Part shown: piece after piece, positions 1,983-63,586 of the stretch | How positions within the stretch are numbered: position 1 is the first letter of the stretch | Layout of the letters: each line of letters begins with the position of its first letter | NCBI RefSeq assembly: GCF_003259525.1 | Contig: NZ_QLLO01000005.1 | Location: 62,001 to 126,000, forward strand | Length of the DNA stretch: 64,000 bases | Direction of reading: 5' to 3' | DNA from: Olleya aquimaris | GTDB lineage: Bacteria; Bacteroidota; Bacteroidia; Flavobacteriales; Flavobacteriaceae | Translations under genes and position numbers: made by a program | Notes under the pieces: generated by a model | Seen by the model: the letters and a program-made list of their open reading frames with translations, nothing else | What the model was told of the DNA's origin: nothing | The model's database searches: none

Positions 1983-2053
1983 CAATCATTAAAAAAGCCA
2001 CTTTAATTCATGTTTTTTAATATTTAAATTAAAAAACTAACACCACATTTTAA

Positions 2054-4903
2054 ATGAATACAAACGCTTTCGCATTACGACACATTGGTCCAAGAGAAGA
2101 CGACCAAAAACAAATGCTTAAAACCATTGGAGCAGATAGTATAGAGCAATTAATCTACGAAACTATTCCAGATGATATTAGATTAAAAAAAGACTTAGAT
2201 TTAGACGAAGCTATGAGTGAACAAGAGTACTTGGTTTACTTAAATGATGTCGCTAAAAAAAATAAAGTCTATAAAACTTATATTGGTTTAGGTTATCATC
2301 CAACCATATTACCTGCAGTTATACAACGTAACATTTTAGAAAACCCAGGTTGGTACACAGCTTATACACCTTACCAAGCAGAGATAGCTCAAGGACGTTT
2401 AGAGGCACTTCTAAACTTTCAAACCATGGTAACAGACCTAACAGGTATGGAGTTAGCAAATGCATCTTTGTTAGACGAAAGCACAGCTGCAGCAGAAGCC
2501 TTAAGTTTGCTATTTGCAGTTAGAGAGCGAGACCAGAAAAAAGCAGGAATCAATAAGTTTTTTGTTTCAGAAAACATTTTACCACAAACACTATCTTTAT
2601 TACAAACTAGAGCTAATCCAATAGGCATTGAATTAGTCATTGGTAATGAAGAAACCTTTGATTTTTCAACTGAATTTTTTGGAGCTATCCTTCAATATCC
2701 AGGAAAAAACGGTCAAGTTACAGATATCAAATCTTTTATAGAGAAAGCTAATAGTAACAATATTAAAGTAGCAGTAGCAGCAGATATTTTAAGCTTAGTA
2801 AAATTAGAAGCGCCAGGTAAATTTGGTGCAGATGTAGTTGTTGGTACTACACAACGCTTTGGAATACCAATGGGTTATGGTGGACCACATGCAGCTTATT
2901 TTGCAACTAAAGAAGCTTACAAACGTGATATTCCAGGTCGTATTATTGGTGTAACTAAAGATGCAAATGGGAACAGAGCGTTACGTATGGCTTTACAAAC
3001 GCGAGAGCAACACATCAAACGCGATAAAGCAACTTCTAATATCTGTACAGCTCAGGTTTTACTGGCTGTTATGGCTGGTATGTATGCAGTGTATCATGGT
3101 CCAAAAGGATTACAAAACATAGCAGACAAAGTACATAATTGCGCAACTACACTAGCAAAAGCATTGGAACAATTAGGGTTTAAACAAATTAACACCTCAT
3201 ATTTTGATACGTTACAAATCAAAACTGATGCTAAAACAATAAAAAAGGTTGCTAAACAGAAAAAAGTAAACTTTTTCTATCCAGACGCTGAAACCGTAAC
3301 TATTGCTTTAAATGAAACTACTTCTGTTAGAGATTTAAATTATATCATTTCTATTTTTGCTGAAGTTGCCAATAAAGAAGCACAAACAATTACGTCTATT
3401 ACTGAAGACACTGCTATAGATAAAACCTTAGAAAGAACAACAGACTTTTTAACTCTTGACGTCTTTAATACCCATCATTCTGAAACTGAATTGATGCGTT
3501 ACATTAAAAAACTAGAGCGTAAAGATTTATCGTTAAACCACTCTATGATTTCTCTTGGATCATGTACCATGAAACTTAATGCTGCAGCAGAAATGTTGCC
3601 ATTAAGTTGGTTTAAATGGGGAAACATTCATCCTTTTGCTCCTTTAAAACAAGCTAGAGGATATGCTCAAATATTAAAAGAACTAGAAGACCAATTAACC
3701 GAAATAACAGGTTTTGCAGCAACCTCTTTACAGCCAAATTCTGGAGCACAAGGTGAGTTTGCAGGACTAATGGTGATAAAAGCGTATCACGAATCTAGAG
3801 GAGACCATCACAGAAACATTTGTTTAATACCTAGTTCTGCTCATGGTACTAATCCAGCTAGTGCAGTTATGGCTGGTATGAAAGTGGTGGTGACAAAATC
3901 TACAGAAGAAGGAAATATTGATGTAGACGATTTACGTGAAAAAGCAGAATTACACAAAGAGAATTTATCTGCTTTAATGGTAACATATCCATCAACGCAT
4001 GGTGTATATGAAGCGTCTATAAAAGAAATTACACAAATCATTCACGATTGTGGTGGACAAGTGTATATGGATGGTGCCAATATGAATGCTCAAGTAGGGT
4101 TAACCAATCCAGGAAATATTGGTGCAGATGTTTGCCATTTAAATTTACATAAAACCTTTGCCATTCCTCATGGAGGAGGTGGTCCTGGAGTAGGCCCAAT
4201 ATGTGTCGCTAAACAACTAGTTCCATTTTTACCAGGCAATCCAATTGTTAAAACTGGAGGCGAAAAAGCAATTACAGCAATCTCTGCAGCTCCTTTTGGA
4301 AGCGCATTAGCTTGCTTAATTTCTTATGGATATATTAAAATGCTTGGTGCAGAAGGTTTAAAAAAATCGACTGAAATCGCCATTTTAAATGCCAATTACA
4401 TCAAGCACAGATTACAAGGTGCATTTGAAACGCTATACTCTGGAGAACGTGGTCGTGCAGCACATGAAATGATTATAGATTGTCGTCCATTTAAAGCCCA
4501 TGGGATTGAAGTAGTAGATATCGCAAAACGATTAATGGATTATGGTTTTCATGCACCAACTGTTTCTTTTCCAGTAGCAGGAACAATGATGATTGAACCT
4601 ACTGAAAGCGAAAGTAAAGCAGAAATGGATCGTTTTTGTGATGCTATGATTTCTATTAGAAAAGAAATTGATGCAGCAACAAAAGATGACGATAATAATC
4701 CATTAAAAAATGCACCACATACTTTAGCAATGTTAACATCAGACGAATGGTTACTACCTTATTCTAGAGAAAAAGCAGCCTATCCATTAGACTATGTTGC
4801 TGACAACAAGTTTTGGCCTTCTGTACGTCGTGTAGATGATGCTTTTGGAGACAGAAACCTAATATGTACTTGTGCTCCTATTGAGGAATATATGGAAGCA
4901 TAA
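2054..4903 (+). CDS. gcvP: Glycine dehydrogenase (decarboxylating), P-protein of the glycine cleavage system
   Basis: A full-length single-chain P-protein (949 residues, typical for the family). It decarboxylates glycine with pyridoxal phosphate and passes the aminomethyl group to the lipoyl arm of the H protein in the cytoplasm. The N-terminal half begins [17 protein letters not shown] and contains [14 protein letters not shown]; the C-terminal half carries the PLP-lysine site [20 protein letters not shown], with Lys at about residue 700. [15 protein letters not shown] around residue 505 is also diagnostic. The gene stands alone here; gcvT and gcvH are not in the window, but lipA, which makes the lipoyl cofactor, is at 19.9 kb. 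Confidence 0.98.
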
Positions 4904-59304: not shown

Positions 59305-59312
59305 CTAAACTC

Positions 59313-59346
59313 AAAAAAAAGCCACTTTAAAAAAGTGGCTTTTTTT
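59313..59346. terminator. Bidirectional intrinsic terminator before the aromatic operon end
   Basis: AAAGCCACTTT and AAAGTGGCTTT (59318-59342) pair in an 11-bp stem flanked by an A-run and a T-run, between convergent genes. Confidence 0.88.
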
Positions 59347-59349
59347 ATA

Positions 59350-60432
59350 TTAGCTTTTTAATATTTTTTCTTGATGATTAATCGATTCTTGGTGAATAGC
59401 TTTAAAAAGTTTTAAAATAAACTCTTCGCTTAATCCTTTTTGCTCACCTTCTAAGACCATTTTTCCTAAAATCTCATTCCAACGTTTGCTTTGTAAAACT
59501 GCTACGTTTTTTTGCTTTTTTAATGCACCAATTCCGTCTGCAACTTTCATACGTTTTCCTAACAATTCGATAACTTGATTATCTACCACATCTATTTGCG
59601 CTCTTAAATTAGCCAACTCGTTATTGTACTCTGCTTCAGGATCTGTTTCTTTTCTAATCTTTAAATCCTTCATCATTTGTATTAAAGCTGTAGGAGTTAC
59701 TTGTTGTGCAGCATCACTCCACGCATTGTCAGGATCTGTATGCGTCTCAATCATTAATCCATCAAAGTTTAAATCTAATGCAGTTTGTGACACATCAAAA
59801 ACCATATCTCGTTTTCCTGTAATGTGTGATGGGTCATTAATTAAAGGTAAATCTGGAAATCTATTTTGAAACTCGATTGCTAGTTGCCACTCTGGTATAT
59901 TTCTATATTTAGATTTCTCGTAAGTAGAAAATCCTCTGTGGATGGCTCCTAAGTTTTTAATTCCAGCAGTATATAAACGCTCTATACCACCTAACCATAA
60001 TGCTAAATCTGGATTAACAGGGTTTTTAACCAAAACAATTTTATCTGTTCCTGCTAATGCATCTGCTAGCTCTTGCATGATAAACGGGCTAACCGTTGAG
60101 CGTGCACCTATCCAAAGTAAATCCACATCGTTTTCTAATGCTAACTTAACATGTGCAGTATTTGCAACTTCTGTACAGGTTTTCATACCTGTTTCTTCTT
60201 TTACTTTTTTAAGCCATTTTAATCCTAAAGCACCAACACCTTCAAAATTTCCTGGTCTGGTACGTGGTTTCCATATTCCAGCTCTGTAATAACTAACGTC
60301 TGTATCTTTAAGCTCGTGAGCAATTTTTAATACTTGTTCTTCAGTCTCTGCACTACATGGTCCTGCAATTACCAATGGATGGTCCAACTTCATGTCATCC
60401 AACCAGTTTCTCATTTCTTTTTTGTTTTCCAT
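59350..60432 (-). CDS. Bifunctional DAHP synthase (AroG-type)/chorismate mutase
   Basis: A 360-residue fusion. The N-terminal DAHP synthase (about residues 1-255) has HPLVIAGPCSAETEEQVLKI, YRAGIWKPRTRPGNFEGVG, and LPLINDPSHITGKRDM. It condenses PEP and erythrose 4-phosphate. The C-terminal AroQ chorismate mutase (about 265-355) starts with LANLRAQIDVVDNQVIELLG and has RMKVADGIGALK. The architecture is the Bacteroidota DAHPS-CM type, in which the mutase supplies prephenate to the upstream genes' products. It is the last gene of the operon; a repeat copy fills the gap to tyrA. Confidence 0.93.
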   Translation of the reverse strand: MENKKEMRNWLDDMKLDHPLVIAGPCSAETEEQVLKIAHELKDTDVSYYRAGIWKPRTRPGNFEGVGALGLKWLKKVKEETGMKTCTEVANTAHVKLALENDVDLLWIGARSTVSPFIMQELADALAGTDKIVLVKNPVNPDLALWLGGIERLYTAGIKNLGAIHRGFSTYEKSKYRNIPEWQLAIEFQNRFPDLPLINDPSHITGKRDMVFDVSQTALDLNFDGLMIETHTDPDNAWSDAAQQVTPTALIQMMKDLKIRKETDPEAEYNNELANLRAQIDVVDNQVIELLGKRMKVADGIGALKKQKNVAVLQSKRWNEILGKMVLEGEQKGLSEEFILKLFKAIHQESINHQEKILKS

Positions 60433-60490: not shown

Positions 60491-61345
60491 TTATTGTATT
60501 CCGTTTAATATTTGTTTGATGTAATTCGTGTCTTTCATTTCGTTATACACGCCTTCAAAATCGTCGTTTTCTATAAGCGTTTTAAAATGAGTTAAATTGG
60601 CTATATAATCTTCCAAAGTGTCTACCACATTGGCTTTATTTTGTTTAAAAATAGGTGTCCACATGGCTGGACTACTTTTTGCTAATCTTACTGTGCTTTC
60701 AAAACCTGAACCTGCCATATCAAAAATATCGCGTTCGTTTTTTTCTTTAGCTATTACTGTTTTACCTAACATAAATGCGCTAATGTGTGATAAATGCGAT
60801 ACATAAGCAATGTGTTTGTCATGAGATTCTGGATTCATGTAACGCATACGCATTCCTAAATCGTTAAACAGATTGACTGCTTTTTCTTGCAATTTGAAGG
60901 CTGTTTTTTCTACTTCGCAAATAATATTTGTTTTATGCTGAAACAAATCTTTGACTGCTGCTTTTGGTCCAGAAAACTCGGTTCCAGCAATGGGATGCAT
61001 TGCTAAAAAATTACGACGTTTTGGATGGTTTTCTACCACTTTGCAAATATCTACTTTGGTTGACCCAACATCTGCTACTAAAGCAAAGTCTGTAATAGTA
61101 TCTAAAATTTTAGGTAACAATTGTACTGAAGCATCTACAGGAATGGCTAATACCACTAAATCTGCTTGATCTAAATCTTCTAAAGTTGCTTTTTGGTCAA
61201 TGACACCTAATTCTAGTGCTTGATTTAAATGGTCTTGAGAATTATCTATACCAAATACCTTGACTCCTGGACGTTTATTTTTGATGTCTAAAGCCAAACT
61301 TCCGCCAATTAATCCAACACCTATGATGTATATATTTTGTATCAT
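60491..61345 (-). CDS. tyrA: Prephenate dehydrogenase
   Basis: A 284-residue NAD-dependent dehydrogenase giving 4-hydroxyphenylpyruvate for tyrosine. NAD binding is at IYIIGVGLIGGSLALDIKNK (residues 4-23). Catalytic-region landmarks are LAMHPIAGTEFSGPKAA (His and Ser/Gly) and the helical domain ending with HIAYVSHLSHISAFMLGKTV. It lacks the fused chorismate mutase of the enterobacterial TyrA. Its start overlaps the aminotransferase gene by four bases (ATGA). Confidence 0.96.
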   Translation of the reverse strand: MIQNIYIIGVGLIGGSLALDIKNKRPGVKVFGIDNSQDHLNQALELGVIDQKATLEDLDQADLVVLAIPVDASVQLLPKILDTITDFALVADVGSTKVDICKVVENHPKRRNFLAMHPIAGTEFSGPKAAVKDLFQHKTNIICEVEKTAFKLQEKAVNLFNDLGMRMRYMNPESHDKHIAYVSHLSHISAFMLGKTVIAKEKNERDIFDMAGSGFESTVRLAKSSPAMWTPIFKQNKANVVDTLEDYIANLTHFKTLIENDDFEGVYNEMKDTNYIKQILNGIQ

Positions 61346-62481
61346 ACTCTTGCTATTGCTTCTTCAATATCTTCATCAGATGCACATAATGAAAACCTTA
61401 CATAACCTTCACCTTGTGTTCCAAATATAATTCCTGGTGTTATAAACACGCTTTTTTCTATTAATAATGTATCTATAAAAGCTTCTGAAGTCACTCCTTC
61501 TGGTGCTTTTGCCCATACAAATAATCCTGATGCCTCTTTACTAAATGTACAATTTAATTTGGTGGCTAATTGCCATACTAATTGTCTTCTTTTTTCATAA
61601 ATACTATTAAGGCTAGAGTACCATAATTTAGTACATTTTAAAGCAGCAATTGCTCCTTTTTGTAACCCGTAAAACATTCCAGAATCCATGTTGCTTTTTA
61701 CTTTTAAAATGGCTTGAATATGTTGACTACTTCCTAAAACCATACCTACTCGCCATCCTGCCATATTAAAAGTTTTGCTTAACGAGTTAAGCTCTAAACA
61801 AACCTCTTTAGCTCCTTTTACGCTTAAAATACTTAAAGGCGTTTCATTTAAGATAAAGCTATACGGATTATCATTTACCAACAATATATTGTGCTTTTTT
61901 GCAAATGCTACCAACTGCTCTAAATCTGCTCTTGTTGCTTTGGCACCAGTTGGCATATGCGGATAACTAATCCACATAAGTTTGACGTTGCTTAAATCTT
62001 GTTGTTCTAGCTCTGCTATATTAGGCAACCAATTATTACTGCTGTCTAAATTATAAGTTATAGGATTAGCTTGCACTAATTTAGTGACTGCTGCATAAGT
62101 TGGGTAGCCAGGATTTGGGATTAACACACCATCTCCTTGATTTAAAAAAGCTAACGATATATGCATGATACCTTCTTTACTTCCCATTAAAGGTAACACC
62201 TCTGCATCTGGATTGATGTGTGTGTAATAGTGCGCTTTATAAAAATCTGCAATTGCTTGACGCAGTTCTGGCAAGCCTTGATAGCTTTGGTATTTATGCG
62301 CTGTTGGATGTGTTAAGCTGTCCGTTAAGGCTTTAACCACCTGACTTGGTGGTGGTAAATCTGGACTACCTATTCCTAAGTTAATAATAGGTTTACCTGC
62401 TGCTTGTAAAGCATGGACTTCTTTTAACTTTTTAGAAAAGTAATATTCTTGTACGCTATGTAATCTGTCTGCTACCTCCAT
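61342..62481 (-). CDS. PLP-dependent aminotransferase of the aromatic operon
   Basis: A 379-residue class I/II aminotransferase. It shows PIINLGIGSPDLPPPSQVVK, MGSKEGIMHISLAFL, and the PLP lysine in ELNSLSKTFNMAGWRVG (about residue 232), then FVWAKAPEG and GEGYVRFSLCA. Context and family suggest it converts phenylpyruvate and hydroxyphenylpyruvate to Phe and Tyr, or prephenate to arogenate; the TyrA and PheA present would serve the first route. Start overlaps the pheA stop by one base. Confidence 0.9.
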   Translation of the reverse strand: MEVADRLHSVQEYYFSKKLKEVHALQAAGKPIINLGIGSPDLPPPSQVVKALTDSLTHPTAHKYQSYQGLPELRQAIADFYKAHYYTHINPDAEVLPLMGSKEGIMHISLAFLNQGDGVLIPNPGYPTYAAVTKLVQANPITYNLDSSNNWLPNIAELEQQDLSNVKLMWISYPHMPTGAKATRADLEQLVAFAKKHNILLVNDNPYSFILNETPLSILSVKGAKEVCLELNSLSKTFNMAGWRVGMVLGSSQHIQAILKVKSNMDSGMFYGLQKGAIAALKCTKLWYSSLNSIYEKRRQLVWQLATKLNCTFSKEASGLFVWAKAPEGVTSEAFIDTLLIEKSVFITPGIIFGTQGEGYVRFSLCASDEDIEEAIARV

Positions 62482-63308
62482 TATAGTTTAGCATTTTTAT
62501 ATTCTCCAATCACTTTAAAATGGGTTGCCATAATATCCATAATGGATTTTGCTTTTTTAAAATCTTGGTAGTCCTGAAACGTGACATCTACAAAAAAAGC
62601 GTATTTCCAAGGGGTTTCAATAATTGGCAAGGATTGTATTTTGGTTAGATTTAGCTTACAGTCACTCATCACATTTAATATGGTGGCTAAGCTTCCTCTT
62701 TTATGGTCTAATTCAAATTTTATCGAGGCTTTGTTAATGTCCTGTTCTGGTATTTCAGAATTTTTCTGTTTAACAATAACAAAACGTGTCTCGTTATGTT
62801 TTATAGTTTGTATGCTTTCTGCTAAAATAGTCAGCTCAAAAATCTCTGCAGCTAATGTACTAGCAATTGCTGCTACGTTTGGTAACTGGTTGTTTTTAAT
62901 ACGTTCTGCAACCTCAGCAGTATCTTTATCTTCAATTAATTTGATGTGTGGATATTGCTTAAAAAAGTCTTTACATTGTAACAACGCCATAGGATGTGAG
63001 TAGACTTCTTTAATATCTTTTATACTTTGATTTGGCAACGCCATTAAGTTGTGCTGAATATCTAAATAATACTCTCCAACAATGTGTAAATTATTGTTAT
63101 CAATTAGCGCATAATTAGGTATGATTGAACCAGCTATCGAGTTTTCTATAGCCACAATTGCTGCGTCAGATTGTTTAGACAGGACACTGTCTATAGTTTG
63201 GTCAAAGGACAAAAACGGAAACACCTTTATGTCTGTCTCAAAATAATGTTGAGACACAATATGGTGAAACGACCCTTTAATACCTTGTATGGCTACTGAT
63301 GTTATCAA
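62481..63308 (-). CDS. pheA: Prephenate dehydratase
   Basis: A 275-residue enzyme turning prephenate into phenylpyruvate. The catalytic domain (about residues 1-180) has VAIQGIKGSFHHIVSQHYF and AAIVAIENSIAGSIIPNYAL, with ETRFVIVKQKN at its end. A C-terminal ACT domain (about 195-275) with SIKFELDHKRGSLATILNVM and TKIQSLPIIETPWKYAFFVD probably binds Phe for feedback inhibition. There is no fused chorismate mutase; that activity sits in the last gene of the operon. The first gene after the leader, its start lies 23 bases past the attenuator terminator. Confidence 0.96.
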   Translation of the reverse strand: MITSVAIQGIKGSFHHIVSQHYFETDIKVFPFLSFDQTIDSVLSKQSDAAIVAIENSIAGSIIPNYALIDNNNLHIVGEYYLDIQHNLMALPNQSIKDIKEVYSHPMALLQCKDFFKQYPHIKLIEDKDTAEVAERIKNNQLPNVAAIASTLAAEIFELTILAESIQTIKHNETRFVIVKQKNSEIPEQDINKASIKFELDHKRGSLATILNVMSDCKLNLTKIQSLPIIETPWKYAFFVDVTFQDYQDFKKAKSIMDIMATHFKVIGEYKNAKL

Positions 63309-63330: not shown

Positions 63331-63363
63331 AAAAAAAAGTCTCGATAATTATCGAGACTTTTT
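63331..63363 (-). terminator. Attenuator terminator in the pheA leader
   Basis: A perfect palindrome centred at 63348/63349 (core CTCGATAATTATCGAG, arms extended by five A/T) gives a stable hairpin on the minus strand, followed by an eight-T run (63338-63331). It stands 23 bases before the pheA ATG. It lies inside the transcribed leader, not after a gene, so it would block the operon unless an alternative fold prevents it. Confidence 0.85.
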
Positions 63364-63382
63364 AAATACATATATTGTTAAA

Positions 63383-63460
63383 TTACATACATAACGTCTC
63401 GCTCTTTTTGCTAAAAAAGAAATAGAACCAGTTATAATATGTAGTGTTAAAATTGCTCAT
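63383..63460 (-). CDS. pheL: Aromatic-rich 25-residue leader peptide of the pheA operon
   Basis: ATG 63460 to TAA at 63385-63383; too short for the usual ORF listing. Residues 4-16 read FNTTYYNWFYFFF, so Phe, Tyr and Trp make up nine of 25 residues, five of them Phe. Codons 20-22 (AGC GAG ACG) contain CGAGAC, which is complementary to GTCTCG in the near arm of the terminator and identical to the far arm. This is the organisation of ribosome-mediated attenuators: a ribosome stalled on aromatic codons leaves CGAGAC free to pair with the terminator's near arm, while a ribosome reaching the stop covers it and lets the terminator form. The symbol is used by analogy to E. coli pheL. Confidence 0.82.
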   Translation of the reverse strand: MSNFNTTYYNWFYFFFSKKSETLCM

Positions 63461-63476
63461 ATTTGAAATACTGATG

Positions 63477-63505
63477 CTAAAGTAAATAATAAATTGACAA
63501 ATCAA
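63477..63505 (-). promoter_or_regulatory. Candidate promoter of the pheA operon leader
   Basis: On the minus strand TTG (63505-63503), 18 bases, TACTTTAG (63484-63477), one mismatch to TAnnTTTG. The predicted transcript start is about 10 bases before the leader ATG. Confidence 0.45.
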
Positions 63506-63586
63506 AATACTAAGTCTCTATTTTTGTGGTTTTTAATAAAGAATTAAAGATTTACCATTAAACTATGGAATAAATTACAGAATGTC

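Follow-up and report, generated by a model that had tools for sequence, protein, structure and literature searches.

A predicted leader-peptide attenuator upstream of the pheA operon of Olleya aquimaris and its distribution in the Bacteroidota

Results

Leader region and aromatic operon

The DNA analysed here (the window) is a stretch of 64,000 nucleotides from Olleya aquimaris. Its minus strand carries pheA with three further genes of aromatic amino acid synthesis and, upstream of pheA, a leader region with a short open reading frame (Table 1). According to the domain matches, the products of the operon lead from prephenate to Phe and Tyr and include the first enzyme of the common pathway. 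The pheA product also gave a weak match to the ACT domain, below the Pfam cut-off. The gene order pheA, aminotransferase, tyrA, DAHP synthase-chorismate mutase was found in 99 of 99 relatives, namely those with more than 4 kb of downstream sequence.

Table 1 Features of the pheA leader region and operon (positions in the window)
Feature	Position	Strand	Evidence or remark
-33 element TTTTG of a probable Bacteroidota-type sigma-A promoter	63503..63507	-	motif count in the family
-7 element TACTTTAG, variant of TAnnTTTG	63477..63484	-	TAnnTTAG common in the family
Leader peptide ORF MSNFNTTYYNWFYFFFSKKSETLCM*	63383..63460	-	25 codons, nine F/Y/W; conserved in relatives
Segment 1 (Thr-Tyr-Tyr-Asn codons)	63431..63443	-	MFE and centroid; cognate duplexes in relatives
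Last Phe run, codons 14-16	63413..63421	-	spacing to segment 2 is set by its last codon
Segment 2 core CGAGAC (codons 20-22 of the ORF)	63396..63401	-	complementary to 63353-63358
Inner A-U helix of the antiterminator	63367..63393	-	constrained folding of the window
Segment 3 core GTCTCG	63353..63358	-	pairs with segment 2; lies in the near terminator arm
Intrinsic terminator: 13-bp stem, 4-nt loop, T8	63331..63363	-	folding; site recurs in the family
pheA, prephenate dehydratase	62481..63308	-	PF00800, E 1.2e-56
Aminotransferase class I/II	61342..62481	-	PF00155, E 9.3e-65
tyrA, prephenate dehydrogenase	60491..61345	-	NF006307, 392 bits (cut-off 295)
DAHP synthase fused to chorismate mutase	59350..60432	-	PF00793 and PF01817

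A sequence-only reading of this region had described the minus-strand ORF with its nine aromatic residues and, behind it, a hairpin with eight T in front of pheA. Both are present as claimed. The terminator stem is formed by 63363-63351 with 63346-63334, the T run ends at 63331, and the start codon of pheA, a TTG at 63308, follows 22 nt past it. The same reading had noticed that CGAGAC is complementary to the near arm GTCTCG, giving mutually exclusive folds, and sequence, folding and covariation agree on this point. The core CGAGAC occupies nucleotides 60-65 of the ORF. By constrained folding the antiterminator gains an inner A-U-rich helix of nine pairs (63393-63385 with 63375-63367). Both the MFE and the centroid structure of the 140-nt leader indicate that segment 1 is able to pair with about 63384-63396, giving a 1:2 stem. 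This stem, the inner helix and the promoter are additions to the earlier reading. The folding z-score of the 140-nt leader was -3.55, and none of 200 shuffled sequences was as stable.

Conservation in the Flavobacteriaceae

Of 299 family genomes searched, 269 contain PheA. The family sample comprised 130 loci, the own locus included, from the upper part of the PheA ranking (61-99% identity). The nearest named relatives belong to Olleya (PheA identity 86-88%), followed by Psychroserpens, Lacinutrix and other Flavobacteriaceae. As the criterion for a leader we took an ATG-started ORF with seven or more aromatic residues in 13; such an ORF was detected not more than 500 nt upstream of pheA in 128 of the 130 loci. 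One of the two others, L011, has 128 nt of upstream sequence before the contig edge and lies outside the 129 testable loci, for which at least 250 nt were needed. For L070 a loss of the leader was considered and rejected; the leader is present 646 nt upstream of pheA, with repeats in between. An aromatic ATG ORF together with a terminator was thus found in 129 of 129 family loci with enough upstream DNA. As a side observation, the stretch that separates the terminator from pheA at this locus (L070/L354) holds repeated units with GC-rich hairpins, and a repeat unit of the same kind occurs at that place in L355, which is of the same genus.

Within 300 nt upstream, 128 of 129 family loci showed the aromatic ORF, compared with 32 of 2580 dinucleotide-shuffled copies (1.2%). 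Terminators scoring 22.5 or more followed all 128 family leaders and occurred in 3 of 512 shuffled copies. A chance ORF beside an ordinary terminator is ruled out by the conservation in the family and by these shuffle controls. The terminator was paired in 98.2% of the alignment cells, and five of its eight pairs had changes on both sides.

In the six codons that end with the last Phe, pairwise difference rates of 0.045, 0.311 and 0.372 were obtained at codon positions 1, 2 and 3 with 71 de-duplicated family sequences. In the aromatic codons the T of the first base is kept, changes of the second base swap Phe and Tyr, and the third base is free. Since the first codon base is nearly fixed and the third is free, the ORF is read as coding for a peptide.

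Promoter and translation start

In 74 of 128 family loci the 120 nt before the leader ATG contain a promoter-like motif, TTTTG-N16..21-TAnnTTAG, which occurs in 0.16% of shuffled sequences; it had been derived from enriched 7-mers and was then counted on the same loci. The spacer measured 18 nt in 73 of these 74 loci, and the motif ended 10-19 nt before the ATG in 68. TAnnTTAG alone was present upstream of 122 of 128 leaders. It resembles TAnnTTTG, given as the -7 box of F. psychrophilum in passages of an earlier study (PMC9723704). This canonical form was not enriched upstream of the leader (10 of 71 sequences, and 8 of 71 against 6.6 in shuffled ones). The position of the motif in the window suggests a transcription start near 63470, about 10 nt before the leader ATG.

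No Shine-Dalgarno-like motif precedes the leader ORF in 70 of 71 family sequences. Position -3 of the ATG is an A in 79% of the 71 sequences, and position -6 in 63%. An A at -3 is described in part of a study on F. johnsoniae as a positive determinant of initiation (PMC6847099).

Antiterminator pairing and covariation

In the family, segment 3 reads GTCTCG in 96 of 128 loci and GTCCCG in 23; the remaining nine have other sequences. Segments 2 and 3 change jointly, from CGAGAC/GTCTCG to CGGGAC/GTCCCG. When ORFs and terminators of the two kinds were exchanged, with up to 40 loci per group, ORFs of the GTCTCG group reached a mean pairing score of 15.0 with terminators of their own group and 9.9 with those of the GTCCCG group. 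ORFs of the GTCCCG group scored 17.2 with their own terminators and 14.5 with those of the other group, a contrast that is less marked because of G-U pairs.

With the sequences anchored on the last Phe, 97.4% of the segment 2:3 positions pair, compared with a mean of 92.7% and a maximum of 94.4% in 1000 re-dealings, the offset having been picked by best pairing, which favours the 97.4% figure. The pairing was complete in 61 of 71 sequences, G-U allowed. In the raw MAFFT alignment the antiterminator was paired in 77.6% of the cells; this lower value is due to one group being shifted by one column. The covariation score of the raw alignment (0.280 against 0.197) exceeded all 500 shuffles. Antiterminator pairs changed on both sides were no more frequent there than in shuffled alignments, 260 of 500 of which reached the count. 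The sequence-only reading had proposed an alignment of relatives as a check, and the comparison of relatives yielded the aromatic ORF in all 129 testable loci and co-changes of segments 2 and 3, with a weaker count in the raw alignment.

For the 1:2 stem, own pairs gave mean duplex energies of -10.96 and -13.91 kcal/mol in the two groups, compared with -8.83 and -10.62 kcal/mol for foreign pairs. The pairing of segments 2 and 3 was weak in L068, L096 and L118.

Stall geometry and folding with a ribosome

Counted from the first base of the last Phe codon, the start of segment 2 lies at 13-14 nt in 119 of 128 loci (range 11-19). Five family loci have their stop codon just 6 nt behind this base, and their segment 2 lies outside the ORF at offsets of 14, 13, 14, 14 and 14. 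Since these loci keep the offset, the distance to the stall codon is conserved and not the reading frame.

Folding was modelled with a ribosome footprint of 30 nt, the respective codon in the A site and the transcript cut before segment 4. The size of the footprint is that of E. coli. With the ribosome stalled at the last Phe, the mean probability of the segment 2:3 pairing was 0.93, with values above 0.5 in 122 of 128 loci and values of 0.5 or less in six (L095, L104 and L118 among them). Stalling at the first Trp codon gave a mean of 0.97 (90 of 90 above 0.5). With the ribosome at the stop codon the mean fell to 0.01, and one of 128 loci remained above 0.5. For the leader of the window, folding gave the antiterminator with Tyr8, Trp11 or Phe16 in the A site and not with the stop codon there. 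According to these results, a ribosome that finishes the peptide permits termination, while a delay on Tyr, Trp or Phe leaves the antiterminator.

Without a ribosome the mean probability was 0.69, with 93 of 128 loci above 0.5 and a value of 0.997 for the window. The textbook step in which an untranslated leader terminates was not recovered, as the equilibrium folds without ribosome favour the antiterminator in these 93 loci. The 1:2 stem exists and is cognate, yet the antiterminator dominates there.

Spread beyond the family

Loci outside the family were drawn from searches at the level of order, class and phylum; the ranks are those of the tool, and the families are given as handles (f). A leader was found in 44 of 72 examined loci of the same class outside the family (24 of 50 and 20 of 22). 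Among these 44, 34 have at least seven aromatic residues in 13, and 40 combine a terminator score of at least 20 with a segment 2:3 score of at least 13. The terminator score was below 20 in L139, L294, L300 and L309. Four class leaders have six aromatic residues (L292, L306, L310 and L311), the limit in one batch being five. Six others with five aromatic residues (L145, L146, L173, L186, L190 and L201) were admitted by hand through the recurring prefixes MNRL, MKQT and MKLT. An ORF with at least five aromatic residues arises in 348 of 2580 shuffled copies of family DNA, and the ten weaker class leaders therefore rest on terminator and pairing. L150 (f16), L154 and L171 (f5), L342 and L345 pass the ORF filter but were discarded, since visual inspection showed no good terminator. 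L169 could not be placed.

The segment 2/3 pairs of other families often differ strongly from that of the window, for example GAGCGGTC/GACCGCTC, ACGGGAGG/CCTCCCGT and GCCGGGGCT/AGTCCCGGC. With the best site per locus used in each case, the mean segment 2:3 score of the 44 class loci was 18.6 for the own pairing, 13.6 for segments of foreign families and 12.7 (sd 2.4) for shuffled ones. The own pairing exceeded the median foreign one in 38 of the 44 loci and did not in six.

A leader with at least seven aromatic residues occurs in 15 family handles (f2, f3, f9, f15, f17, f21, f28, f30, f46, f47, f50, f55, f64, f71 and f77), and four others have one with five or six only (f18, f31, f52 and f59). 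In seven further handles (f5, f12, f16, f27, f38, f39 and f69) none of the loci examined had a leader. Within single families the leader was found in two of five f30 loci and four of five f15 loci. Outside the class, four of 22 loci have a leader (L331, L333, L334 and L335).

In f16 pheA is kept, but a leader with terminator was detected in none of six loci (L148-L151, L175 and L176); L150 has an aromatic ORF without terminator. The f16 genomes measure about 0.6 Mb, one of them 0.3 Mb, and look like those of insect endosymbionts such as Blattabacterium. The regulation was probably lost in these presumed endosymbionts.

Codons of the leader and other leaders in the genome

Phe and Tyr codons were present in all 128 family leaders (673 and 491 in total). 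Trp codons, 91 in total, were found in 90 of 128 leaders and were absent from 38. In the genome of O. aquimaris trpE is preceded by a Trp leader of its own, MNAILNHTWWWNSRKSTFVN, with hairpin and T run (L207:1293-1419, plus strand), which matches the Rfam family RF01692 (Bacteroid-trp) with 64.6 bits.

A leader model (R1) was also searched against this genome. The pheA leader was the best of 19 matches with E of 1 or less (100.8 bits, E 3.1e-14). The second match (42.4 bits), the only other one inspected, was rejected as a further copy, since by eye it looks like a plain terminator behind another gene. A weak match of the leader model in the window (59312-59447, minus strand, 22.6 bits, E 0.066) lies at the end of the DAHP synthase-chorismate mutase gene and is possibly the operon's own terminator.

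Further observations concern other sites. In the genome of O. aquimaris, hisG is preceded by a leader ORF rich in His, MNFIQSHHHHFHICTQAN (L206, G000:C10, from offset 1176 on the minus strand), which is followed by a hairpin with T run and looks like a His attenuator. Near the aromatic operon of a relative, two matches to the Flavo-1 RNA (RF01705) were noticed (L105:4646-4723, plus strand, and 2033-2108, minus strand). At an ilv-type operon with one match to a TPP-enzyme family (L209), no clear leader was found beside a terminator.

Discussion

We consider it highly likely that the pheA leader controls the aromatic operon by ribosome-mediated transcription attenuation. The reading as an attenuator, first made from the window, gains strong support from the conservation in relatives, the terminator, the spacing and the co-change of segment 2 with the terminator. 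Computation yielded the ORF, the promoter-like motif, the terminator, the complementarity and co-variation of the antiterminator, the spacing to the last Phe and the operon. Transcription start, translation, stalling and termination in vivo are predicted from these parts.

With charged Phe-tRNA and Tyr-tRNA available, the ribosome would reach the stop codon of the peptide and cover segment 2. Segment 3 would then pair with segment 4, the terminator would form, and RNA polymerase would stop near 63331. When Phe or Tyr is short, the ribosome would stall on the aromatic codons with its leading edge just before segment 2. The free segment 2 would pair with segment 3 through CGAGAC and GTCTCG and through the inner A-U helix. 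This antiterminator would block the terminator, and the operon from pheA to the DAHP synthase-chorismate mutase gene would be transcribed.

The sequence-only reading had assumed that Phe, Tyr and Trp are read together. This holds for Phe and Tyr, but 38 of the 128 family leaders are without a Trp codon and trpE has its own leader. We read the pheA leader as a sensor of Phe or Tyr with an optional input of Trp, because Phe and Tyr codons are universal and Trp codons optional, the operon makes Phe and Tyr, and trpE is served separately; which amino acids count is deduced from these features.

Three other explanations were weighed against attenuation. A sensor of the nascent peptide, in which the free amino acid and not uncharged tRNA arrests the ribosome by way of the peptide in the exit tunnel, is improbable. 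Arrest of this type, with Trp in the exit tunnel, is known for TnaC. The geometry found here would suit any stall at the last Phe, and the core of the peptide is strongly conserved within the family. Across families, however, order and identity of the aromatic residues vary freely, which would not be expected from an arrest peptide with fixed residues. Moreover, a stall caused by plentiful Phe would turn the operon on when it is not needed.

It is very improbable that the ORF is accidental and the leader binds a ligand or protein as a riboswitch, a T-box or the target of an RNA-binding protein. The ORF keeps its codon-position bias, and no Rfam threshold was reached at the leader of the window or at the pheA leaders of L105, L187, L192 and L331; the stable alternative folds are what such a leader would also have. 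Equally hard to credit is a functional small aromatic protein acting in trans and separated from pheA by an ordinary terminator, for although the ORF has its own conserved promoter-like motif and some leader peptides are described, in part of a published account, as acting in trans (PMC7298713), the C-terminal codons co-vary with the terminator, five family loci lose these codons by an early stop, and the same operon follows in 99 of 99 relatives.

Beyond attenuation as such, a more far-reaching interpretation was formulated, for and against which we see about equal chances. The leader would be one and the same attenuator of great age, which would predate the orders within the class Bacteroidia and may go back as far as much of the phylum. 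It would act as an OR gate for shortage of Phe or Tyr, and of Trp where the codon is present, and would depend on ribosomes that initiate about 10 nt behind the 5' end with no Shine-Dalgarno sequence. In many members termination would need a ribosome at the stop codon, and untranslated leaders would be read through.

Leader-peptide attenuation of pheA is known from enterobacteria, where the Phe-rich leader peptide pheL, alternative hairpins and an intrinsic terminator precede the gene. The leader described here shares this plan, but it stems from another phylum, has another sequence and adds Tyr and often Trp codons. Furthermore, its operon also holds tyrA and a DAHP synthase, it has no Shine-Dalgarno-like motif, and in the window its segment 2 is part of the ORF. 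A search of Rfam 15 at the leader of the window gave 16 matches up to E 10, all of them below the thresholds. Neither the enterobacterial Phe leader family nor Bacteroid-trp was among them. Bacteroid-trp (RF01692, Bacteroidete tryptophan peptide leader RNA) is a leader-peptide RNA of the same phylum; unlike the pheA leader it is a Trp leader before trpE. It is listed in a passage of PMC2864571.

That such an attenuator had not been described, as supposed in the sequence-only reading, is true in part. Passages of a study from 2021 report a structured 5' element upstream of F. psychrophilum pheA that is conserved in other genera of the Flavobacteriaceae and has no Rfam hit, and they speak of strong indications that leader peptides bring about attenuation in front of amino-acid operons of this species (PMC9723704). 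Belonging to the same gene in the same family, this element is very probably the one described here. As far as these passages of the main text go, they give neither a peptide for pheA nor alternative folds nor the occurrence beyond the family (PMC9723704). The distribution found here is wider than they state. For Bacteroides thetaiotaomicron, part of another study notes short ORFs in 5' UTRs that resemble leader peptides (PMC7366714). The terms 'pheA' and 'Flavobacter' are absent from the main texts of PMC2965389 and PMC4833913, and 'leader' from that of PMC8305728. Among the mostly open-access papers searched on leader peptides of Bacteroidota and Flavobacteria and on pheA, nothing closer was found.

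Thus, the kind of regulator was already known; peptide, anatomy, promoter and breadth are added here. Judged from sequence comparison, the pheA leader appears to be a genuine and widely conserved multi-amino-acid leader-peptide attenuator that is ordinary in kind. The main aromatic amino-acid operon of many Bacteroidota thereby gains a concrete and testable regulator without a family in Rfam 15. The wide conservation with shifting pairing sequences provides natural material for studying how attenuation is arranged in space. If the reading is true, transcription and translation would be coupled closely enough for attenuation in a group with mRNAs lacking Shine-Dalgarno sequences.
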